A stretch of 64,000 nucleotides of DNA from Victivallales bacterium (GCA_017548425.1 JAFZAB010000081.1:1-64000); one strand, 5' to 3'; positions 26,210-44,495 are shown, numbered from the stretch's first letter. The notes: generated from the letters alone by a model not told the origin. Translations and numbers: made by a program.

Positions 26210-29200
26210 TTATTCCGCCACCAATTCAAAGAACACGGTGGGGCCGTCTTTAAGTGTTGCGGTATCAATGGATATGGAGGTTTTGCCGTTGCGTTTGACA
26301 AGAGGAAGTTCCTCTCGTCGTGCGCCATTGAAGCCGAGAGCATACAGCTTGAAGCCTTTGGCGGGGCGGTCGAATTGAAGCTGTAGTTGACCGCAACGGA
26401 GCAGGGTGGGGGGATGGCCGGACTGGATGTTCGTTGAACGGTCTGGCGAAAGTGTCAAATTGGAATTGGCGACCATCGTCGAATAGATGAATACGATGCG
26501 TTTAGAAGTCGAAAGCGGTTGATTGTCAATGGCGATGGCGGCGACACAGGCTGGCGTTGAGGAGGCATTGACGGTTATGTAGGCAAGTTTTTCCTCCTTG
26601 TTGGCGTCCATACAGACGACTTCTGATTTCGGCGTGATGACTTTCAAAAGATGTTCTTTTGCCCAAAGTGTGATTTCTTCCGTATCGCTTTGGAAGATAA
26701 GATTTTCTGCATCTGATAAATTGGCGGCGGGAAGGATGCCCTGAACCTTGAGTTTCTGGAGGAGATTGTCAAGAGAGAAGGAGCCGTTGGGATTGTCGAT
26801 GAGATTGATGAACCAATCGGCGGCTTGAATCGTGGATGTTCCTTCGGGCAGAATCTGGCAGTCCGCTTTTGGAGCGACGACGGTTCCATTGGCGGGCTTG
26901 CGGTCAGGAAACGCGATGGAGAAGCCTGTTACCAAAGCTAGCAGGCTTTGCTGGCCTGCGACGCCGCCAATGGCCAAATTGTTGCTGTTCAATGCCGTAT
27001 CGGGTATGGCAAGTTCGATGCGGCGTTGTGATGGCTTCACATCGCCGCGTTGGAAGAGATGGGTGGTGATGAATTCATTCGCACGCACAATAGGATTGTT
27101 GCCGCAGGAGAAACTGCCGATGGCCTGCGGCATGGTTGATGAATTCATGAGAATCGGATTTTCGTGTATCTGCAAGGCGTTGAAGCCTTGCAGGGCGGAA
27201 TAGGCGCCCATGACGGCGCCGTTTTCATATTGATATGGATTCCAGAAGCAGTGGTTGTATTCCGTAATGGTGAACGGACGCCCAGCCATGCGGGACGTGT
27301 TGGCGGTTCGCCAATAGTTGACGGCACCAGACAGAGAACTGTCCTGTCCCACACGGCAGCTGGGGGCTCCCCAACCGCCGATAGGATGTTGGTAATACGT
27401 GTTTTGGCAAACATATTGGCATGTTGACCAACGGGCGGCCGCGTCAGCGATTCTACGGGCGACATTGTAATTGCTCAACAGGCCTTTGTAGCCTGTGTCG
27501 CGCACGACTTTTTCGCACCATGCGTAGGATTTTTCCGCAAGCGTGATGGTGAAGAGCGCATAGGCGTTGGCCAATGCGCTTTTGCGGTCTTTCGGCGACG
27601 GCAGTTCCGCTTCCGCCAAAGGCTTGCCGTTCAGTTCTTTCTGAAGCTCTAGAGGAATGGCGTCTTTGTATTTGACGACGAGCCATTCGCGGAACTGACG
27701 GCGCAGTTCCGCCTTGAGATTCGGATATTTGGCGAGTACGGGAGCAACGCGTTCAAGACCGAGCTCCTGCTCATTGTAGAATTCGACGAAGGCGATGGCG
27801 GGATCGTCCTTCCATGCAAGTTTCGTATAGGGGTTCACATGATTGAGAACAGTCTTGGCTCCGTAGATGAAATGATCCCGTATCCATCTGTTGCCGAGAT
27901 ACATCTGGAGTTTGTGCTTGTCGCGTTCTTCAAACAGGGTATTGCGTGGCGTGGCGTCGTCGTAGAGACCAAATGAAAGAAGTGTGACATGGAGATAGAT
28001 TCCCGCCTGCTTCAATTCGTTCAAAAGAAAATCCCAACGATCGAGCTGTGCGGGATTGATTTCCATATCTTTATGGGAACCGTGGCAAAGCGTGCGGTCG
28101 AACGAACCATGTGTGCGGAACAGGCGGAAGCCAGCCCGTCTGGCGGCCTGCGCGAAATCATGGGCCTGTTTTTTGAAGTCGTCGTCCGATTCAAGCGTCA
28201 GAAGATTGTAGGGATAGCCATTGAAACCCATGAGATGGAGCGGTTCGTCCGGACGTTGTTCCAAGACCAAATCGCCAGTCTTGCCGATGACGGCGCGGCC
28301 GAATTTACCGGCTGGCGATTCGACTTGATGCGACAGGTCAAGTGCCGATCCTGCAATGATTTCTGACTGGCCGTAAAGATTGAACGGTTTCCATTCGTTG
28401 TTGGTTACATAACGGATAGGTGGTCGTGGCTGACCACAGACGAAACGCCATCCGGCGGAACCTGCCAAAATACGGATTGCCAAGATATTACGGCCTTTTT
28501 CGACTGGTATGTCCAACACGATGTCGTCCGGAGTGAAGGCATTGGATGGATTTCCGCGGGCGAGATTTTCGTAGATTTGTTCTCCGTTCATGAAGATTTC
28601 CATCCACCAGTCTGCGGAGAAACCGATGTGCATGACGCCTGTAATGTCGCTTTTAAAGACATTATAGAGAATGGCTTGTGACTTTTCTGGCACACGGCCG
28701 CCAACAAGAGCGGCGAGATTGATGGTATTGTTCTGCAAGGCGACCTGCTTGACGTCTTTTACTTTTGGTAAAGTCTCATAAGATGCAGGAACGTCGGAAT
28801 TTAGATAGACGGACCATTTAGAGGCCAATTTGGAGACAGGAACGTCATGCGCTTCCACAAGACTGATGTCATGGAGAGTGACCGTGCCACGTAAGTTGCT
28901 TAGATTAAACGTCAGATGGGCGTCCTCTCCGTCGGATCCACCCGCCGTGAAAAAGGCAGTGATACGGTTCCGCCCCGCCTTGACGGGGCGATTTTCCGCA
29001 AGACCGATACTTGAATAGGGCGGTCTGCTCATTTGGTAGATATGACGCATGACGCCAGATTCTGTGCAGTCAAGCGTGTAGAGCAGGCGGCAGGGCGTGC
29101 CATACTTAATCCTTAGTTTCTGTAAAAGAAGGAGTTCCGTCGAATGCAACGATGCCTTCGACGGAATGTTGACGGTGAGTTTTCCATTCTCGATGTTATA

Positions 29201-29407
29201 AGTGACGCCTTTCGCCGTCAAGGCTTCAGTCTGCGAAAACCCCCAGCCTTTCAGCCCGTTTTCGAAAGACGGATTCTGCAGGATGTTTTGTGCTGAAACC
29301 ACCAATGAAAACATCAAAAATAAAATGGAACCACGAATAAACACGAATGGACACGAAAAAGTGCCTCGCCGCCGTCGGCATTGATGCTGAAGATTTTGAG
29401 CAGACAT
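26210..29407 (-). CDS. Large exported GH-A-clan glycoside hydrolase
   Basis: A roughly 1065-residue exported protein. After a hydrophobic export signal ending VVSAQ there is a carbohydrate-binding-like domain opening NPSFENGLKGW, then a beta-sandwich (ADWWMEIFMNGEQIY) and a (beta/alpha)8 barrel (FNGYPYNLLTLES, FRLFRTHGSFDR). Clan GH-A catalytic residues are present: acid/base in VEFYNEQELG and nucleophile in FTITEYNHCFWN. The family number and substrate are unclear. The start is uncertain: ATG 29407, GTG 29344 and ATG 29314 all lack a Shine-Dalgarno. The signal peptide region overlaps the CACGAAT repeat, which supplies the residues PFVFIRGS. It lies directly downstream of the three-enzyme fusion gene. 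Confidence 0.8.
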   Translation of the reverse strand: MSAQNLQHQCRRRRGTFSCPFVFIRGSILFLMFSLVVSAQNILQNPSFENGLKGWGFSQTEALTAKGVTYNIENGKLTVNIPSKASLHSTELLLLQKLRIKYGTPCRLLYTLDCTESGVMRHIYQMSRPPYSSIGLAENRPVKAGRNRITAFFTAGGSDGEDAHLTFNLSNLRGTVTLHDISLVEAHDVPVSKLASKWSVYLNSDVPASYETLPKVKDVKQVALQNNTINLAALVGGRVPEKSQAILYNVFKSDITGVMHIGFSADWWMEIFMNGEQIYENLARGNPSNAFTPDDIVLDIPVEKGRNILAIRILAGSAGWRFVCGQPRPPIRYVTNNEWKPFNLYGQSEIIAGSALDLSHQVESPAGKFGRAVIGKTGDLVLEQRPDEPLHLMGFNGYPYNLLTLESDDDFKKQAHDFAQAARRAGFRLFRTHGSFDRTLCHGSHKDMEINPAQLDRWDFLLNELKQAGIYLHVTLLSFGLYDDATPRNTLFEERDKHKLQMYLGNRWIRDHFIYGAKTVLNHVNPYTKLAWKDDPAIAFVEFYNEQELGLERVAPVLAKYPNLKAELRRQFREWLVVKYKDAIPLELQKELNGKPLAEAELPSPKDRKSALANAYALFTITLAEKSYAWCEKVVRDTGYKGLLSNYNVARRIADAAARWSTCQYVCQNTYYQHPIGGWGAPSCRVGQDSSLSGAVNYWRTANTSRMAGRPFTITEYNHCFWNPYQYENGAVMGAYSALQGFNALQIHENPILMNSSTMPQAIGSFSCGNNPIVRANEFITTHLFQRGDVKPSQRRIELAIPDTALNSNNLAIGGVAGQQSLLALVTGFSIAFPDRKPANGTVVAPKADCQILPEGTSTIQAADWFINLIDNPNGSFSLDNLLQKLKVQGILPAANLSDAENLIFQSDTEEITLWAKEHLLKVITPKSEVVCMDANKEEKLAYITVNASSTPACVAAIAIDNQPLSTSKRIVFIYSTMVANSNLTLSPDRSTNIQSGHPPTLLRCGQLQLQFDRPAKGFKLYALGFNGARREELPLVKRNGKTSISIDTATLKDGPTVFFELVAE

Positions 29408-29565: not shown

Positions 29566-29604
29566 CATTTGCTTTAAGCTTTAAGCTTTTAGCTTTTAGC
29601 TTGT
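29566..29604. repeat. Heptad array (GCTTTAA), module B, at a stop codon
   Basis: CATTTGC followed by GCTTTAA, GCTTTAA and GCTTTTA-type units, about five copies at 7-8-bp spacing. The array runs up to the stop codon (29604-29606) of the leftward three-enzyme fusion gene. The edge sequence ATTTGC before the first GCTTT also occurs at 43723-43728 and 53582-53587 and, inverted, at 53442-53447. Confidence 0.85.
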
Positions 29605-32600
29605 TAGAGCCCTTCTTCTTTGAAGATGGCTTCAAGTGCTTCCGACCAAACGGCATAGCCGTTTTCGTTCAGATGGCAGTTGTCGCGATAGAGCGACGTG
29701 TTCAGTTCGCCGTCTTTCATCATGCGCGGGCTGATGTCCAGTAGCGTGACGTTCACCAAGCCGCGGCATTCTGCCGTGAGCAAAGCGTTCAGCTTGTTGA
29801 TCTTATCGCGATACGGCTCATGGTTGAGGCCGCGCGGGAAGACTTTCATGACGACGACGCGCGTCTTCGGCGAGGCCGCAAGCACGTGTTCGACGACGGA
29901 GAGGATGCCTTTGACGACCTGTTCGGGCGTGTCGCCCGGATAGTTGGCCGTCTGTGTCAGATTGTTTGTTCCGATGTGTAGAACGAATACTTTGGGCTTT
30001 TGATTTGCGAATTCGCCATTTTCGAGACGATAGATGAGATTGCATGTGCGATCCCAGCCGAAACCGAGGTTGAGGACGTCGCGGTTGGCAAAGAGTTTCT
30101 TCCATGATTCAGGCCCGTGCAGCGTCTCCCAGAAGTGCGTGATGGAATCGCCCATGAGGATGATGTCGTAGCGGTGCTTTTTGGCGGCTTCGCATTTTTC
30201 TTTATGGCGTTCGAACCAGTCGTAGCTGTCGTTTTCGATTTTCGTCTGCGGCGTGCAGGAACGTTCTGGCGTAAATGCCTTGACATGATGGACTTCGCCT
30301 GGAACGGGAATGGTGGTCGCAAGCGACGGATATTTGACTTTCATGTAATCCGTGAACAGTTGTGGATTCTCCGTGTTTCCTTTGAACATGTCGAAATGGG
30401 CGGGAATGGAGAGGCGTGGACGGATGGCTCCTGCGAGATCGGCGGCCTCCTGGAAGGTCATATTACCGATGCAATTGCCGCCGAGGCGGCGTGCGTCACG
30501 GCCGTTGATGGGAAGCATGACGGCATCGAGCGGGCAGAAGCGGCGGAGCCTGTCGAGCATGCCTTCATAGACGCAAGTGTCTCCCGCATGGTAGATTCGG
30601 ACGCCGTTTCCTTCGATGATGTAGCCGAGATATGGGTAATTGCCGGTTTGTGGATTGCGATCGAGAAACTCATGGGCGGACGGAATGGCGGTGATTTTGA
30701 CATCGCCGATCGTGACGGATGTGCCGTCCGTGAGTCCGATGAAGCGGTCTGCGTCAATTTTCGTCGCTTTCTGGACTTGTGGGAAAACGTCTGCGGGAAT
30801 GATGAATTTTAGGTCTGGATTAGCCGCGGCGAGTTTGGGCCAGAGCGGTCGGTCAATATGGTCGCTATGGTCATGGGTGCCGAGGGCGGCGGCGACTTTC
30901 TTGTATTGCGCAGGGAAGAGGAGCGGCGGAATCTGGCGGGCCTTGCTTGGCGTGAGATAGGCATCGACGGAGATGACCGTCTTGCCGAGCTTCAGGAGGA
31001 AGCCCTGCTGCCCGAGATGATACCAGGCAAATTCGCCCGGCTGGAGCTCGATGTTGTCCAGTGGTGTGCTGATGTTGTCCATAAGTTGTTTCTTTTGTTC
31101 GGCTTGCGGGTTTTCATTGGAGACGAGATAAACGCCGACATGGCGTGGCGGAATGACGGCATTGAAGGCGTAAGTGCCTTGATTCATGGAGACTGGACGG
31201 TCGTGGAGCAAATCCGTGATGGTGGTGGCGGCCGTGATGGCGAGGCCTGTCTCCTGTACGGGAATCTTGACGGTGAAATCGCCGTAGGCGTCTTTTGACG
31301 GATTCGGAACGACGATGATCGCCTTGCCGCCGGCATAACGGGCGTATGCCGTAAGTCCTTTCAAACCATCGACTTCAGTCTTGCAGATGTTTGTTTCGCG
31401 GTGGTTGATCGGATAGTATTCGAAAATGTCGCGGAATTGGCGGCGGATGGCGATCGCCTTCTTGACGTCCTCCATGAAGAAGGCGTTGGCGGGTTGGTTG
31501 GCAAGATTGTAGTCGGTCTCCTGATGGTAGATGACCATTTTGGGGGAGGTAAGGCCGAATTCGTCGCCTTGGAACCAAATGGGAATGAACGGCGCGAGAA
31601 CGGCGGCGTAATTGATTTTCAGACGGTCGCCGCAGACGTCGCGCCGCTGGTAGTCGTGATTCGTGATGCAGTTCGGATAGAAACGGAATTTGCCGCGTTT
31701 CTCTGCATCATTTTGCAGATTGGCGGGGCCGAGGCCTGTGCCGTTTTTGCATGAATCAACGATGTCCAAGATGCCGTCCACGAAAAAGTTAACGGGATTC
31801 TGATAGAGCTGGCCACGATGCATTTTGCTGTAGTCCAAAACGCCGTCCTGCTCCATGTCGAAGGCGTCCTGCCGGTCGTTGCAGTCTTCGGCGATGGCGA
31901 TGATATGCTTCCCCGCTTTGGCGAGGCGTCTGCGGATTTCCGCAAAGTTCTTGTAACCAGCGTGGTACGGCTCGCAGTCGCAGCGGAATCCGTCAATATC
32001 CGTGTCCAGAACGAGTTGGACGGTATTCTGAATGAACCATTCGACGAATTCCGGATTTTTCCAATTGAAGGCTTCATTGCCCCATGCCTTGCCGCTGAAC
32101 CAGTCCGGATGGTCTTTGATGAGCTGGCAGTTGGTCATGGCGCCCCATGTGATGATATCCAATAGGATATGGATGTTCCGCTGATGGGCCTGATCGACAA
32201 AACGGCGGAGCGACTGGCGGGCGGCCTGCTGGTCGGTCGTTTCCGCATAGGCGGGTTCGAGCAGATGGACGCCTTGGTTGCCGTAGCCGTTGCCGCCGGG
32301 GCCTTTTTCAAAGACGGGGCAGAGCCATAACGCGTTGACGCCGAGCGACGAATAGTGGTCGAGCAGGGGGAGGGCCTTGTTGAATGTCCGGCCAAGCGAA
32401 GCGGTTTGCAGATGGACTTCGACCAATACCATGGATTTCACCCAGTCCGGTGTCATGAGCTTCCCTTCCGCATCCGATGGTTCAAGCTTTACGTCTTTGC
32501 TGTAGCGGTATTTAGGAAGCAGGCCGAAGTTGTCCAGCCGTTTTTCCGCGAATTTGTAATGGATGTCTGTGCCTTGCGGAACGGCGAACGCCGTCGCCGT

Positions 32601-32975
32601 CGCAAATTCCGTGACAAGCGTGTCCAACGCTCTTTCGAGAGCGACGGCGGAGCCTGCCTCGATGGACGGCTGAGTTGGATTCTGGAAGGAAATCCGATAA
32701 TCACGCGGTTCGAATGACGGCGTGTTTGGATTCACAAGTATTTTGGGCAACGTGGATTGTGCATCTTCTGGAAGCTTCGCGTGGTATTTTTGCTGCAAAA
32801 AGGCCTGCAATCTGGCGATGGCGGCTTTTGTCTGGTCGTCTGCATTTTGCGGAATGGCGATGGCGAATTTGGGCTGTGCGTCAAGAACGATGGGAATCAT
32901 GTTTTTCTCCAATGCGAGGCTGAATTGGAAAGCCGTCATGACGGCGAAGGCTGCCAATGTGATTTTTCCGGTCAT
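29604..32975 (-). CDS. Exported three-enzyme fusion: GH13 amylase, UlaG-like MBL and SGNH hydrolase
   Basis: A 1123-residue exported protein. Residues 1-22 are a signal peptide; an N-terminal alpha/beta domain (about 25-165) resembles accessory domains of other glycosidases. A GH13 barrel follows (about 180-600) with DGFRCDCEP (nucleophile Asp, ~329), IAIAEDC (Glu, ~361) and TNHDY (~438). Residues ~640-900 are a metallo-beta-lactamase-fold hydrolase like UlaG ascorbate-6-phosphate lactonase: GTHDHSDHID (~699), YHAGDTCVYEG (~797) and PINGRDARRLGGN. The C-terminus (about 915-1123) is an SGNH esterase: LMGDSITHFW (~942), HIGTNN (~999) and DNCHLNENGY. All three active sites look intact. UlaG is normally cytosolic, so its export here is odd. 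Confidence 0.88.
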   Translation of the reverse strand: MTGKITLAAFAVMTAFQFSLALEKNMIPIVLDAQPKFAIAIPQNADDQTKAAIARLQAFLQQKYHAKLPEDAQSTLPKILVNPNTPSFEPRDYRISFQNPTQPSIEAGSAVALERALDTLVTEFATATAFAVPQGTDIHYKFAEKRLDNFGLLPKYRYSKDVKLEPSDAEGKLMTPDWVKSMVLVEVHLQTASLGRTFNKALPLLDHYSSLGVNALWLCPVFEKGPGGNGYGNQGVHLLEPAYAETTDQQAARQSLRRFVDQAHQRNIHILLDIITWGAMTNCQLIKDHPDWFSGKAWGNEAFNWKNPEFVEWFIQNTVQLVLDTDIDGFRCDCEPYHAGYKNFAEIRRRLAKAGKHIIAIAEDCNDRQDAFDMEQDGVLDYSKMHRGQLYQNPVNFFVDGILDIVDSCKNGTGLGPANLQNDAEKRGKFRFYPNCITNHDYQRRDVCGDRLKINYAAVLAPFIPIWFQGDEFGLTSPKMVIYHQETDYNLANQPANAFFMEDVKKAIAIRRQFRDIFEYYPINHRETNICKTEVDGLKGLTAYARYAGGKAIIVVPNPSKDAYGDFTVKIPVQETGLAITAATTITDLLHDRPVSMNQGTYAFNAVIPPRHVGVYLVSNENPQAEQKKQLMDNISTPLDNIELQPGEFAWYHLGQQGFLLKLGKTVISVDAYLTPSKARQIPPLLFPAQYKKVAAALGTHDHSDHIDRPLWPKLAAANPDLKFIIPADVFPQVQKATKIDADRFIGLTDGTSVTIGDVKITAIPSAHEFLDRNPQTGNYPYLGYIIEGNGVRIYHAGDTCVYEGMLDRLRRFCPLDAVMLPINGRDARRLGGNCIGNMTFQEAADLAGAIRPRLSIPAHFDMFKGNTENPQLFTDYMKVKYPSLATTIPVPGEVHHVKAFTPERSCTPQTKIENDSYDWFERHKEKCEAAKKHRYDIILMGDSITHFWETLHGPESWKKLFANRDVLNLGFGWDRTCNLIYRLENGEFANQKPKVFVLHIGTNNLTQTANYPGDTPEQVVKGILSVVEHVLAASPKTRVVVMKVFPRGLNHEPYRDKINKLNALLTAECRGLVNVTLLDISPRMMKDGELNTSLYRDNCHLNENGYAVWSEALEAIFKEEGL

Positions 32976-33014
32976 TTGGTTTTCCTCTGATTACGTAGTT
33001 TTATAAAATAGTGG

Positions 33015-33113: not shown

Positions 33114-33962
33114 ATGCAGGAAACGAGCAAGAAGATTTTTGAAGCCGCGAAAGACCATCTGCTGATCGCCGCCCATCGCGGTACTGCCGGCGGCAACATC
33201 CCGTGCAACACGATCCAGTCCTATGAGGCGGCGTTGCTTCAGGGCGCGGATATCATGGAGATTGACGTGTCGGTTTCGAAAGACCGCAAACTGTTCGTCT
33301 TCCATCCTGGAATGGAACCCGCCCATCTTCGTAGCAGCCGTTATATCAAGGATATGACGGCGGACGAAGTCGCGCAGTTGCGTTTTGTGAACCAAGATGG
33401 CACGCCCACGGAGTGCCCCGTCAGCACGCTGGATGAAATCTTTGATCTGTTTAAAGGCCGCTGCTTCATCAACGTCGATAAATTCTGGACGGCGATTCCG
33501 GAAATTACGGACTGCATCCGCCGCCATGGCATGCAGGATCAAGTCATCGTGAAGACCTCCCCGAAGGAAGAATGGTTCAAGCAGATCGAAGACTACGCTC
33601 CCGAACTGCCGTACATGCCGATCATCCAGAGCAACGATAAGATCACGGACATGCTGTTGACGCGCAAACTGAATTTCATCGGCGCGGAAGTGCTTTTCGA
33701 CAAGGATGATGAAGAGACGGCGTCGGACGCCTACATCGAGAAGATGCACAAGCATGGTCTTCTGCTGTGGGTCAACGCCATCATCTATAATTACAAGAAG
33801 CAGTTGTCGGCAGGCCATTCGGACGACGTGTCCATCATCGGCAAGATGGACGACGGCTGGGGCTGGCTGGCGGACAAGAAATTCGATATCGTCCAGACAG
33901 ATTGGATGCTGCCGATTCGCGAATACTACAAAGGCCGCGGCATGAAGGTCAAACAGCTCTAA
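33114..33962 (+). CDS. Glycerophosphodiester phosphodiesterase family protein
   Basis: A 282-residue GDPD-type TIM barrel predicted to hydrolyse glycerophosphodiesters to glycerol 3-phosphate and an alcohol. Metal and catalytic motifs include AAHRGTAGG (His-Arg, ~19), NTIQSYEAALLQGADIMEIDVS (Glu-x-Asp) and VFHPGMEP, where the usual His-Asp is His-Pro. No signal peptide is visible, so it is likely cytosolic. This variant (NIPCNTIQ instead of PENT) suggests a subfamily with a different substrate. AAGGAG lies 8 bp before the ATG. A second, more canonical GDPD is at 43758-44495. Confidence 0.85.
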   Translation: MQETSKKIFEAAKDHLLIAAHRGTAGGNIPCNTIQSYEAALLQGADIMEIDVSVSKDRKLFVFHPGMEPAHLRSSRYIKDMTADEVAQLRFVNQDGTPTECPVSTLDEIFDLFKGRCFINVDKFWTAIPEITDCIRRHGMQDQVIVKTSPKEEWFKQIEDYAPELPYMPIIQSNDKITDMLLTRKLNFIGAEVLFDKDDEETASDAYIEKMHKHGLLLWVNAIIYNYKKQLSAGHSDDVSIIGKMDDGWGWLADKKFDIVQTDWMLPIREYYKGRGMKVKQL

Positions 33963-38585: not shown

Positions 38586-41500
38586 TTACTTATCCAAACT
38601 ACGGTAGTAATTGTTAATCAAGCCTTTGTATTCGTCTGAAACATTGTCCAGGTTGATATCCGCCGCGGCGCTGCCGCCTTGTCGTGAGCCGGAAGCGACT
38701 GGAAGAGGAAGGATGGCGCCTGATTGGGCGGAAACCTGCGTGTCCGAAAGATTTCGCAGGACACGCTTCCGAACTGTGTTCAAATCCTTCAAATCCGGCG
38801 GCTGGTTTTCGACAGCCCGCAGTTCACGAGCCGCTTCACCAAGATTGCCTGGATTGACATAAAGCATTCTGGCGGATGCATACATGGCTTCCGTCTCCTT
38901 GCGAATCTGCCGTGGATTCGTGCCATGCGCGGCAGTATGGAGGTCGCGTCGTGGCGCGTTGCCGAACATGCCGATGGCTTCCGATTCGCCGCCGAGTTTG
39001 CCGCCGCCTGTGGCGCGCGCTTTCATCGTGGAATCTTTATCCTCTGTGACCATGCCTTTCTGGAATTGATCCTGCGTGCGGCGGGCATGCGTTTCGCGGC
39101 CTTCATAGCCTTTGACATGGTTTTCGACGAGTTCACCGTCGGCCTGACCTTCGCGTCCGGAACCGGAACGGCCTGTCATTTCGTTGTCGTTGGGGCGCGT
39201 GTTGCCAGTCTTGCCTTTGGCGGCGAAGCTCGGCATGTTGCCGTCCATGATGGCCCAACCCATTTCGGCATCCGCTACGATGTTGTTTCCTGTGCCGTCC
39301 TGCGACTGATCGTCGATTTGATTATCTTGGTCAAGTAGTTCTCCGACAATGTCTTCCAACTCTTCAGGCAGTTCGACGAGCGGAATTTCCGGAAATTCAT
39401 CCGTATCAAAGGATTCCATATTCCAGACAAAATGATCCGGCGTGTCGGGAAGCCACATTTCGACGTCGTCGATGCGCTCTTTCGTGCCACGGATGGCGTC
39501 CAGAATGCCGTCTTCCTTCTGGACGGCGATTTCAACGGCTTCCGCCTTTTCGGAATCTCTGGCCTGCGTGACATCTTCATAGATTTCGCGCATCTTGGAA
39601 TTCAATTCGTTACAGAGCGGAAGCTCAGGGAACTGATAAAGGTCGTTGGCGGCTTTTTCAATCATGTCGAGCATTTCCTCATGCTCTTTCGCGGCTTTCG
39701 CAAGTTCTTCTTTTGCTTCATCGTCCATATTGGCGTTGGCCTTGATTTCTCGCACGGTGGAGGTGATGGCGGCTTGCTTTTTCTCCATCGCATCCAAAAC
39801 GTCCTTTGCTTCCGCAAGGACCTTTTTCACATCGTCGATGGTCTTTTTGAAATTGGTGAGACGCCATTTGTTGAGAATGGCCAGAACGTCGGCTAGAACT
39901 TTGAGCGTGGCCTTCTGGTCGTCGATGGCCGCGTCAAGATCATTGTCTTCAATGGCTTCCGCCGCTCCGAGCGCATGGTCGTAGGCTTTCCCATCGTCGA
40001 TGGTCTTATTGGCGACCTTCAATTGATTGGCGAAATCATCGTCCGCATGCTCCGTCACGTATGACGCGCAGAGCACCTGTATGTTCAGAATGCCATGCGC
40101 GACCGTGTCTTGATTGCGTGCGAGCGCGGAAAGGACGATTTTCTGGCCTTTCTTGGCATCCATGGCGTCTTTCAAGGCAGTCTGCTGCTTTTTCAGCAAG
40201 GCTTGGATGGCGGCGAAAATATCCGTTTTGGCCTGATGTTCTTGTTCGCGAGCCAATGCGTCCAGATTCATATTGGAGAGGGCGGCGACGATGGCGGTCT
40301 GCAAGGCCGTGCATTTGCGGATGGCGTCGGCCTTTTGCTGACGGGGGGCCTGATGGATTTCATCAAACGCGGCAATGGCTTGAAGCATCTCTTGATTGAC
40401 CAGTCCGACGATGGTGTCAGCGAATCCGCCGAGAGCGGCACGGTTGTCCAACAGCTTGATGGATTCTTCGCGGATGGTGCGTTGGCGTGCATGGATGTCC
40501 GCCAGTCTATCTTCTGGAAGTTTCTTGTTTGTAATGGTTTGTTCAAGAAGCAGATTGGTGTCTTTCAGGGCCGTCTTCTGCATTTTCAGAATGTCGGCGA
40601 TACCGATCGCAATCTCGCGGAGCGTTTCCGCCTTGTTGGCAACATTGTTCTCCGACTGCTGGATTTTCACATGGATGATGGCGGATTTTGCGCGACGACG
40701 GCTGGCGGACGGCGTTTCATCCTCCGCCCACAAACGGAAGCGAAGTTCTTCCTTTTGGTTGAACGTCGCGGTCTCGACGGTGAAACGAGCGGAGAACACT
40801 TTCGTGCGTTCTTCTGGCGAAACGGCGCGGACTTCCTCCGTGCCATTGTCTTCCAACAGGCGGTCGATACCCGCACGGGCGACGCCGAAATCGTCGGTCG
40901 CACGGAAAGCGACGGCGAACGGTTCGTCTGGACGGACGGTGATGACGGTCGGCGTATCGAGAAGTTGGATGGACGGTTGGCGGTCCGCTAAGATGTTGAC
41001 AGGGAAGGGGATGGAGACGCTGGAATCGTTTTCATCCGTCATTTTTAGAATGATTTGTCCGTCCAACAGCGTGGCGAAATCAACGTCAATGGCATCCGAT
41101 TGATTTTCCTTTGACAGACAAGATGTCAGAACCGTATCATTCTGAATAAGTTCCGCTTGCGTCAGTGGTTTGGAGATTTGCGCATGGAGCTTCAGGCGGG
41201 AACCGCCGATGACGGATGGCTTCTCCTGCGTGGAGTTGAATTGGGCGGGCGGCATTTCCGTGTAGGCGGGGGGCACCACCGTCGCTTCCCAATGGAGCAG
41301 GGCGGGGGGATTGTCCAACGTAACGTATTGCCAATCAGATGTGCTGTCGCCTGCCATGAGGCGGAATCTGGCCTGATCGAAAACAGGCGGCGTGATGACG
41401 CTGAAGTTCGGTTCCGTTTCGTCCGTGCTTCGTTTCATGGAAAGTTTTTCAATGGAGGCGTCTGGCGCCGCGCACCATTGGATGATCGTTTCAGACGGAA

Positions 41501-42167
41501 TGTCGCCTTCCAGAATGGCCGCGATGGTGAGCTGTTCACCACGTTGGACACGTGCGTTTTGCGGCAGGAGACTGACGATGCGTGTCTTCGCATAGGGGAG
41601 CAAGTCACTGCCCGGACGGAGGATACGTTGCAATGCGACGGTCATCCGTTCGGGAGCCGCAACCATGGAAATCACAACGGCGAGCAACACGGCGGGCAGG
41701 GTGGCGGCCAGCCATTTCAATGGTCGTTTGGAATACAGCTCCGACGCTTTGATGGTGGCGGGATTGACATCCGTGTCCGCCAAAAGTGTTTCGACGATTT
41801 CCGTCGGCGTGTTTTCAGAATCCGCGAATTGGACGGCGTTTATGAAAGCGTTGTCGGCATCCGGGCGGGCCTTTTCCAATAGGGTGGCCATGGCTTGGTC
41901 CGACAGTTTGACCAAGGCGGTCCGGATGACGAAAACAAACGCGGCAATTACGGCTAAAGCTGTGATACCGAAGGCGATATAGCGAGACGGATGGCTGAAA
42001 TGGCATAGCACGTCCAGACCTGCGGCTACGAAAAGAATGACGACCGCAGGAAGCAGACTCCAAAGGGCGGCGATGGCTGTCAGTTGGAGCTTGCGTTTGC
42101 GTTTCAAGGCATGGATGCTGTCAAGCAGATGACGCAGGCATGGCCCTGTCTGGGCGGGGTTGACCAT
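38586..42167 (-). CDS. DUF4175-type large membrane protein with coiled coil
   Basis: A roughly 1193-residue membrane-anchored protein resembling the DUF4175 family. Two hydrophobic segments lie near the N-terminus (AALWSLLPAVVILFVAAGL and FGITALAVIAAFVFVI) and a third near residue 180 (AATLPAVLLAVVISMVAAP). A beta-rich region follows, then a long charged helical region (about 530-930) likely to form coiled coil, and a Gly/Asn/Ser-rich C-terminal tail. Relatives are usually near MoxR AAA ATPase and von Willebrand A genes, but none is found here. The start at 42167 has GGAGA upstream; a longer reading (42251) would be translated through a CACAGAT repeat (residues CNLCDLW) and is rejected. Confidence 0.75.
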   Translation of the reverse strand: MVNPAQTGPCLRHLLDSIHALKRKRKLQLTAIAALWSLLPAVVILFVAAGLDVLCHFSHPSRYIAFGITALAVIAAFVFVIRTALVKLSDQAMATLLEKARPDADNAFINAVQFADSENTPTEIVETLLADTDVNPATIKASELYSKRPLKWLAATLPAVLLAVVISMVAAPERMTVALQRILRPGSDLLPYAKTRIVSLLPQNARVQRGEQLTIAAILEGDIPSETIIQWCAAPDASIEKLSMKRSTDETEPNFSVITPPVFDQARFRLMAGDSTSDWQYVTLDNPPALLHWEATVVPPAYTEMPPAQFNSTQEKPSVIGGSRLKLHAQISKPLTQAELIQNDTVLTSCLSKENQSDAIDVDFATLLDGQIILKMTDENDSSVSIPFPVNILADRQPSIQLLDTPTVITVRPDEPFAVAFRATDDFGVARAGIDRLLEDNGTEEVRAVSPEERTKVFSARFTVETATFNQKEELRFRLWAEDETPSASRRRAKSAIIHVKIQQSENNVANKAETLREIAIGIADILKMQKTALKDTNLLLEQTITNKKLPEDRLADIHARQRTIREESIKLLDNRAALGGFADTIVGLVNQEMLQAIAAFDEIHQAPRQQKADAIRKCTALQTAIVAALSNMNLDALAREQEHQAKTDIFAAIQALLKKQQTALKDAMDAKKGQKIVLSALARNQDTVAHGILNIQVLCASYVTEHADDDFANQLKVANKTIDDGKAYDHALGAAEAIEDNDLDAAIDDQKATLKVLADVLAILNKWRLTNFKKTIDDVKKVLAEAKDVLDAMEKKQAAITSTVREIKANANMDDEAKEELAKAAKEHEEMLDMIEKAANDLYQFPELPLCNELNSKMREIYEDVTQARDSEKAEAVEIAVQKEDGILDAIRGTKERIDDVEMWLPDTPDHFVWNMESFDTDEFPEIPLVELPEELEDIVGELLDQDNQIDDQSQDGTGNNIVADAEMGWAIMDGNMPSFAAKGKTGNTRPNDNEMTGRSGSGREGQADGELVENHVKGYEGRETHARRTQDQFQKGMVTEDKDSTMKARATGGGKLGGESEAIGMFGNAPRRDLHTAAHGTNPRQIRKETEAMYASARMLYVNPGNLGEAARELRAVENQPPDLKDLNTVRKRVLRNLSDTQVSAQSGAILPLPVASGSRQGGSAAADINLDNVSDEYKGLINNYYRSLDK

Positions 42168-42217
42168 ATTTTCTCCTGAGGCAATTTCAAAATTGCTCAA
42201 ATGTCTATGTAAAGGAA

Positions 42218-42370
42218 ACCACAGATCACACAGATTACACTGATTTTTCACAGATAGCCTTGCCGCCGAGGCCGATAAAAACGCTTAAGATTCTGATTAT
42301 AAAAAGAATATAAAAAACAAACAGGATTCATCGGCCTCCGGCGCCAAGGCTGGTTCTGAAAATCACAGAT
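42218..42370. repeat. Module A variant (CACAGATTAC) and GC-rich module C
   Basis: CCACAGATCA-CACAGATTAC-ACTGATTTTT-CACAGAT is a 10-bp-period array (about 42219-42255). GCCTTGCCGCCGAGGCC follows at 42257-42273, and a reverse-oriented GGCCTCCGGCGCCAAGGC at 42333-42350, so the GC-rich parts form a loose inverted pair. This is most of the 288-bp gap between the DUF4175-type gene and the oxidoreductase. Confidence 0.7.
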
Positions 42371-43757: not shown

Positions 43758-44495
43758 TTACATGAGGCCTTTCTGCTTCATCAAGGGGACGGTCACATCC
43801 AGTTTGTTGCTGGTCAACGTCACGACGCCGCATTCCAATGCCTTGTCAAGCGTCGCTTCGTCGTCGATGCCCCAGCTGTCGATTTCGATGCCCATGTCGT
43901 TGAAGGCCTTAACCTCTTCCTTGACGACTTTCGAAATGTGGATGCCAATGCGTTTCATGATCTTATAGGAGCCGGGGATGAAATTCGCCATGTCGCATTC
44001 ACGGAAACCGTGGAGGAATGTGTTCGGATCGATTTCGTGCAGATGATGGAGCTGCGCGATGATGAAACTGATGAACGAGCAGGACTGCAGCTTGTTGCGC
44101 TTTTTCAGCTCTTCATAGCAGATTTCCGCGCATTTCGGATTGGGATCCTTGACTTCGCAGGCGATGAAAATGTCCGGTTTCCGGGAAAGAATGAAATCCA
44201 GAACTTCCTGCAACGTAGGAATCTGCGTTCCTGCAAACTGTTCGCCCTTCCATTTGCCGAAATCATATGTTCGGATTTCATCGAACGTCAGATCGTTGAT
44301 GACGCCTGTATGGTCGCAGCAACGGCCGATTTTGCCGTCATGGCTGATGACGGGCACGCCGTCCTTCGTCAGATGCACGTCGAATTCAATGGCGGAGACG
44401 CCCATCTCAAGCGCCTTTTCGAACGAAATCAACGTATTTTCCGGATACGATCCGCAAAAGCCACGATGTCCAATCAAAATCGGTTTCGTCAACAT
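43758..44495 (-). CDS. Glycerophosphodiester phosphodiesterase
   Basis: A 245-residue cytosolic GDPD hydrolysing glycerophosphodiesters to glycerol 3-phosphate and alcohol. All canonical motifs are visible: LIGHRGFCGSYPENTLISFE (His-Arg, about 8-27), GVSAIEFDVHLTKDGVPVISHD (Glu-x-Asp and His-Asp) and a later FIACEVKDPNPK (Glu and Lys). AAGGA precedes the ATG. It is the last gene of the leftward cluster that begins with the glycogen genes, 17 bp after the TPR lipoprotein gene. Its stop codon touches a heptad array. Confidence 0.93.
   Translation of the reverse strand: MLTKPILIGHRGFCGSYPENTLISFEKALEMGVSAIEFDVHLTKDGVPVISHDGKIGRCCDHTGVINDLTFDEIRTYDFGKWKGEQFAGTQIPTLQEVLDFILSRKPDIFIACEVKDPNPKCAEICYEELKKRNKLQSCSFISFIIAQLHHLHEIDPNTFLHGFRECDMANFIPGSYKIMKRIGIHISKVVKEEVKAFNDMGIEIDSWGIDDEATLDKALECGVVTLTSNKLDVTVPLMKQKGLM

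Follow-up and report, generated by a model that had tools for sequence, protein, structure and literature searches.

The window, by which we mean the whole stretch of 64,000 nucleotides from a rumen-type Victivallales bacterium analysed here, contains on its minus strand (29604-32975) a gene whose frame is uninterrupted over 1123 codons from an ATG at 32975 and which joins a GH13 part, an MBL-fold metal hydrolase domain and an SGNH (GDSL) esterase domain in a single chain. The original prediction, made without stating the strand, had given the right coordinates for this frame and had named its three domains. All the features of the gene described below lie on the minus strand.

Domain layout and neighbouring genes

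A likely ribosome-binding site, AGAGGA (32983-32988), read from the sequence, lies 7 bases before the ATG. The signal peptide claimed by the original prediction is also predicted by hydropathy (2.15 over 12 residues) at about residues 1-22 (MTGKITLAAFAVMTAFQFSLAL; 32910-32975), with a charged start and a hydrophobic core, and this N-terminus is conserved in the sister genomes G002 and G004. It precedes an N-terminal domain (residues 23-140; 32556-32909) that had zero Pfam matches at E-values up to 5 and that is found again in the GH13 protein of G003. The remainder of the chain comprises the GH13 catalytic region with a C-terminal beta domain (residues 141-636; 31068-32555), the MBL domain (residues 640-900; 30276-31058) and the SGNH domain, of the PAF-AH Ib type (residues 905-1123; 29607-30263). 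The Pfam search, which had been proposed for each domain separately, recovered Alpha-amylase (4.5e-12), Lactamase_B_2 (7.9e-21, with Lactamase_B_3 also matched by the same part) and Lipase_GDSL_2 (4.2e-23), all above the gathering cut-offs and therefore not by chance.

The GH13 motifs GFRCD (residues 329-333), AED (362-364) and NHD (439-441) provide the region II arginine, the nucleophile aspartate, the acid/base glutamate and the transition-state aspartate (R331, D333, E363 and D441). Region I, however, reads D-I-I-T-W-G and not the canonical DxxxNH, and the same replacement is present in G003, L066, L067 and L068 (L011, L017 and L018, whose rows do not align, were left out of this comparison). 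The activity of this part may thus be unusual, and the proposal of three complete-looking active sites, which holds for the catalytic signatures, takes a caveat for this region. In profile and PDB searches, the barrel was matched best by TreZ and related GH13 amylases (PDB 1eh9, 4gkl); identity with TreZ itself was rejected (65.1 bits against a cut-off of 538.8 for TIGR02402). The predicted GH13 structure was poor (pLDDT 49, pTM 0.38) and was left out of the fold search. Two solo GH13 relatives (L066, 4933-7298; L068, 4776-7306) are each overlapped or directly adjoined by a gene whose product, of about 300 amino acids, resembles a lipoprotein; the one of these two products that was scanned had no Pfam match.

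The SGNH domain has the Ser, Gly, Asn and Asp-x-x-His blocks of the PAF-AH Ib type, in GDSIT (residues 942-946, with S944 as the serine), LNLGFG, GTNN (1002-1005) and DNCH (1098-1101), and matched PAF-AH Ib alpha in the PDB at 8e-29 (about 1e-28 over the whole domain). The MBL domain contains HDHSDH (701-706), AHE (767-769), GDT (798-800), INGRDARR (823-830) and PAHFDMF (858-864); indeed, HxHxDH, AHE, GD, INGRD and PxH(F/Y) are kept by every fused and solo MBL that we aligned.

The next gene (26210-29314, minus strand), about 290 bases downstream, encodes a mannanase-like glycosidase of about 1034 amino acids with an uncertain start codon (PDB endo-beta-mannanase 1rh9, 2e-4), and the same gene order was found in G002 and G004. 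Co-transcription of the two genes is possible; promoter and terminator scans of the locus gave results at or below chance level. On the other side, a GDPD-type gene with a DUF4996 Pfam domain (33114-33962, plus strand) is divergent from the fusion gene and has a common upstream region with it. Elsewhere in the window are a second GDPD-type gene, judged from its sequence (43758-44495, minus strand), and a gene for a 1221-residue protein (38586-42251, minus strand) that has hydrophobic stretches at its N-terminus and long segments that are charged and look helical, and for which no Pfam match was found.

Continuity and history of the fusion

The original prediction had singled out 30250-31100 as the place where an assembly join or a frameshift might have produced the fusion. 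The window genome is a draft of 248 contigs, 86% complete and 5% contaminated, and could in principle have joined separate genes artificially. Against this, the same continuous frame is present in two sister genomes obtained from other data sets: RUG12186 (G002) carries the entire three-part frame with 95% identity to the window protein, and RGIG7794 (G004, from water buffalo reticulum) carries residues 270-1123 in a single frame with 96% identity, its first 289 residues being on another contig, with the contig break inside GH13 and not at a domain junction. The dS between the window and these two genomes (0.30-0.49) indicates that the three are separate genomes. An artefact is thus hardly conceivable, and the search for the same domain order in other genomes, which had also been proposed, gave that order in G002 and, across residues 270-1123, in G004.

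Our searches covered relatives, the family and 388 genomes sampled from the phylum. The MBL-SGNH fusion was found in six genomes only, namely five species of the genus and G010, from a different genus within the family; the join to GH13 is present only in the window genome (G000), G002 and G004, that is in 3 of the 5 species of the genus. A pattern-based scan of genome contigs reaching other phyla gave this genus alone, and our search of the open-licence literature found no description of such a fusion. In the MBL tree, which has many weakly supported deep branches and a root that serves for drawing only, the six fused MBLs fall into a single group (support 97/91), placed within the class's solo MBLs. 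The MBL-SGNH fusion is probably older than the join to GH13. The window MBL begins MDNISTPLDNIELQPGEFAW, resembling the start of a free protein, and the SGNH part begins RSCTPQTKIENDSYDW, as solo SGNH proteins do, so that the joins look like end-to-end fusions of complete proteins. Neighbouring solo genes for MBL and SGNH were considered as the source of the fusion, but the solo loci examined showed no conserved adjacency of the two.

In G001 and G003, the MBL-SGNH unit is a 515-residue protein with its own predicted signal peptide, beside a GH5 gene; in G010 it has 496 residues and, by hydropathy, no signal peptide. The one-chain arrangement of the original prediction consequently stands for G000, G002 and G004 and does not extend to G001 and G003. 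There, in fused genes (L041, 7312-11163, plus strand; L042, 2-3613, plus strand), a GH13 that is 54-58% identical to that of the window runs on into a module of about 640 residues without Pfam family, which from its sequence we take to be a beta-sandwich with an alpha/alpha barrel and which had only marginal matches, none above threshold (C5-epimerase, E-value 0.044; cellobiose 2-epimerase, 0.006). On contig C42 of the window genome, this module is encoded by a gene of its own and has a predicted signal peptide (L125, 6141-8186, plus strand; 61% identical); the gene adjoins GH5, DLH-type esterase and DUF4838 genes, and the module is present in G002 and G004 too. The same GH13 has thus swapped partners within one genus, being fused either to the module of about 640 residues or to MBL-SGNH, and the retention of the unfused partner as a separate protein in each species argues that all the parts serve one process. 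Relatives of the module (43-61%) were also observed in other Lentisphaeria-type genomes.

The join, being recent and narrow (3 of 5 species), could also be fortuitous, MBL-SGNH then being a passenger on an exported GH13 without a role outside the cytoplasm. We consider this very improbable: the omega values between the window and its sisters (0.08-0.09 for GH13, 0.03 for MBL and 0.05-0.09 for SGNH) indicate that all the parts are kept by strong purifying selection, which for MBL and SGNH has acted after the join, and the MBL-SGNH protein of G001 and G003 has a predicted signal peptide separate from that of GH13.

Identity and proposed relocation of the MBL domain

The MBL domain has the fold, the HxHxDH motif and the later Asp and His ligands of the MBL superfamily, of UlaG-like or COG2220 type. 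Its predicted fold, obtained with an alignment of 5 sequences (pLDDT 70, pTM 0.77), had UlaG structures as best matches (3bv6 and 2wyl, E-values 4e-14 to 8e-14), followed by UPF0173 and NAPE-PLD. The profile scores were 54.3 bits for PRK00685/UPF0173 and 34.6 bits for UlaG, both far under the cut-offs (144 for NF001911 and 306 for NF008688, respectively), and membership of either family was rejected. For UlaG, identity to the E. coli protein is about 20% (19-22% in the PDB fold alignment), true orthology being held plausible above about 55% (PMC3219644), and the hexamer-building N-terminal helices, a conspicuous feature of the UlaG family (PMC3219644), are absent, since the domain begins at about UlaG residue 32. 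No ula regulon neighbours (PTS, UlaD, UlaE or UlaF genes) were present among the genes identified at the fusion locus in the window. The UlaG-like label of the original prediction is therefore right for fold and superfamily and wrong for family membership, and the role of UlaG in ascorbate-6-phosphate metabolism does not carry over to the fusion MBL.

The presence of NAPE-PLD and of a cAMP-bound UPF0173 protein among the structural matches, together with the PAF-AH Ib-like SGNH and the divergent GDPD gene, raises the alternative of glycolipid or phospholipid head-group degradation, in which MBL would be a phosphodiesterase (as NAPE-PLD), SGNH a lysophospholipid or PAF-type acetylhydrolase and GH13 would take off the sugar. 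We regard this as improbable, because the fold is nearer to that of UlaG, the GDPD gene lies on the opposite strand, the MBL-SGNH gene of G001 and G003 adjoins a GH5 gene instead, and the solo MBLs go with sugar-type dehydrogenases.

Solo MBLs, of about 270 amino acids, were observed in a conserved cluster that also has a zinc ADH and either an SDR or a second, glucose-dehydrogenase-like ADH, and in some cases LacI and PfkB genes (L088, 4577-7400; L089, L090, L093, L101 and others). Counting one locus for each of the 29 solo relatives, ADH1, ADH2 or SDR lies close by on the same strand in 15, against 0 of 24 comparison loci; Fisher's test gives 2e-5, a value that serves only as a guide, given the kinship among the loci. 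In ADH2, the C-terminal domain is that of glucose dehydrogenases (PF16912). Orthologues of ADH1 (68-72%) were present in each of the 4 solo-MBL genomes tested, in 2 of these outside the fetched neighbourhood, and none was found in the six fused-MBL genomes (best match 33% or less). This absence fits a change of pathway at relocation, though the comparison draws on only two lineages and on incomplete assemblies. A dehydrogenase that makes a sugar lactone beside a lactonase is a classical pair, and the solo clusters, possibly an undescribed pathway of sugar oxidation and lactone opening, support a lactonase role independently of the UlaG label. The lactonase proposed originally thus gains support through the solo relatives, the name UlaG lactonase being too specific, and the genomic context favours a sugar lactonase function for the MBL family.

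As an indicator of a Sec signal peptide, we took the highest hydropathy reached by any 12 consecutive residues among the first 32. Values of 2.0-2.4 were obtained for the window protein, for that of G002, for the GH13 protein of G003 and for the MBL-SGNH proteins of G001 and G003; the 16 solo MBLs examined gave 0.2-1.3, and the MBL-SGNH protein of G010 gave 0.9. Such a stretch is lacking in 3 of 4 solo SGNHs and present in solo GH13 relatives. By this hydropathy pattern, the chain consists of an exported-type glycosidase and two domains for which most of the nearest relatives have no export signal: the MBL and SGNH parts, usually inside the cell, appear to have been transferred to the outside and put to use in digestion.

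Proposed function and known systems

The partner swap and the mannanase-like or GH5 neighbours place these parts in glycan breakdown. We suggest, at about even confidence, that the chain is a secreted tri-catalytic carbohydrate hydrolase in which a relocated cytosolic lactonase and an esterase are wired to GH13, with acylated or lactone-bearing oligosaccharides as the inferred substrate. Under this proposal, MBL and SGNH would have joined first, then gained export and then become attached to GH13, and a single signal peptide would deliver all three domains outside the cytoplasm. There, SGNH would strip acyl (probably acetyl) groups, MBL would open a sugar lactone or a closely related carboxylic ester, and GH13 would cut the alpha-glycosidic bond of the cleaned oligosaccharide. 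The ancestor of the MBL lineage would have been a sugar lactonase of the cytosol, coupled to a glucose-dehydrogenase-like enzyme, and relocation would have freed the lineage from that pathway.

Several points count against this reading. The join of all three parts is confined to three species that are close relatives, no dehydrogenase lies next to the MBL gene at half of the solo loci, and the dehydrogenase association speaks for the solo MBL family and not directly for the relocated MBL. Moreover, it is not obvious where sugar lactones would come from outside cells in an anaerobic gut. Alternatively, MBL could hydrolyse esters of plant glycans (uronate, acyl or aryl esters) and not lactones, the chain then combining two complementary ester-stripping domains with a glycosidase. 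Indeed, wherever MBL is predicted to be exported, it is joined to an esterase, esterase-esterase and esterase-glycosidase fusions are known from gut bacteria (PMC7110780), and hydrolysis of carboxyl and phosphoryl esters has been inferred within the UlaG-like family (PMC3219644); the solo relatives, however, cluster with dehydrogenases and not with glycan-degrading genes, and we consider this alternative unlikely, while giving it real weight. The more specific form of the lactonase reading, to which we lean somewhat less than evenly, is that a dehydrogenase-linked cytosolic lactonase lineage was detached, fused to an esterase, exported and attached to a partner-exchanging GH13 hub, which would add to glycan digestion an extracellular step, so far undescribed, that opens a lactone or an ester.

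Secreted carbohydrate enzymes with several catalytic activities are already known. What would be unexpected is to find, on a glycosidase chain outside the cytoplasm, an MBL-fold enzyme that appears to descend from cytosolic, dehydrogenase-linked proteins. If the lactonase reading is true, it would point to gut or rumen glycans that carry a decoration not yet described (a lactone or an internal ester). The chain is of unusual architecture, and its history can be followed. The fusion offers several domain pairings that can be assayed apart, and the module exchange in one genus is a natural experiment on which activities belong together.

Compared with known systems, E. coli UlaG, the L-ascorbate-6-phosphate lactonase (PDB 2wyl/2wym), shares the MBL fold and the HxHxDH, GD and PxH motifs, whereas the AHE third motif and INGRDxxR are found in the fusion MBL and absent in UlaG, and the fusion MBL is fused and predicted to be exported, without N-terminal oligomerisation helices and without ula operon. 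The UPF0173/PRK00685 metal-dependent hydrolases (PDB 3x2z, 7e3v) resemble it by a core of 227-246 amino acids and by a profile score higher than that of UlaG, and differ from it as the fusion MBL has the INGRD insertion, is fused and is predicted to be exported. TreZ and the GH13 amylases that best match the barrel differ from the GH13 of the fusion, which is without the canonical NH in region I and has an extra N-terminal domain. The catalytic subunit of PAF acetylhydrolase Ib (PDB 1wab, 3dt6) has the same GDS, G, GxNN and DxxH blocks, the SGNH of the fusion being bacterial, predicted to be exported and the C-terminal part of a larger chain. Finally, the fused acetyl-feruloyl esterases of Bacteroidetes likewise have several glycan-acting catalytic domains in one exported chain, but these domains are established carbohydrate esterases, and the passages of PMC7110780 that describe them do not mention an MBL-fold domain.
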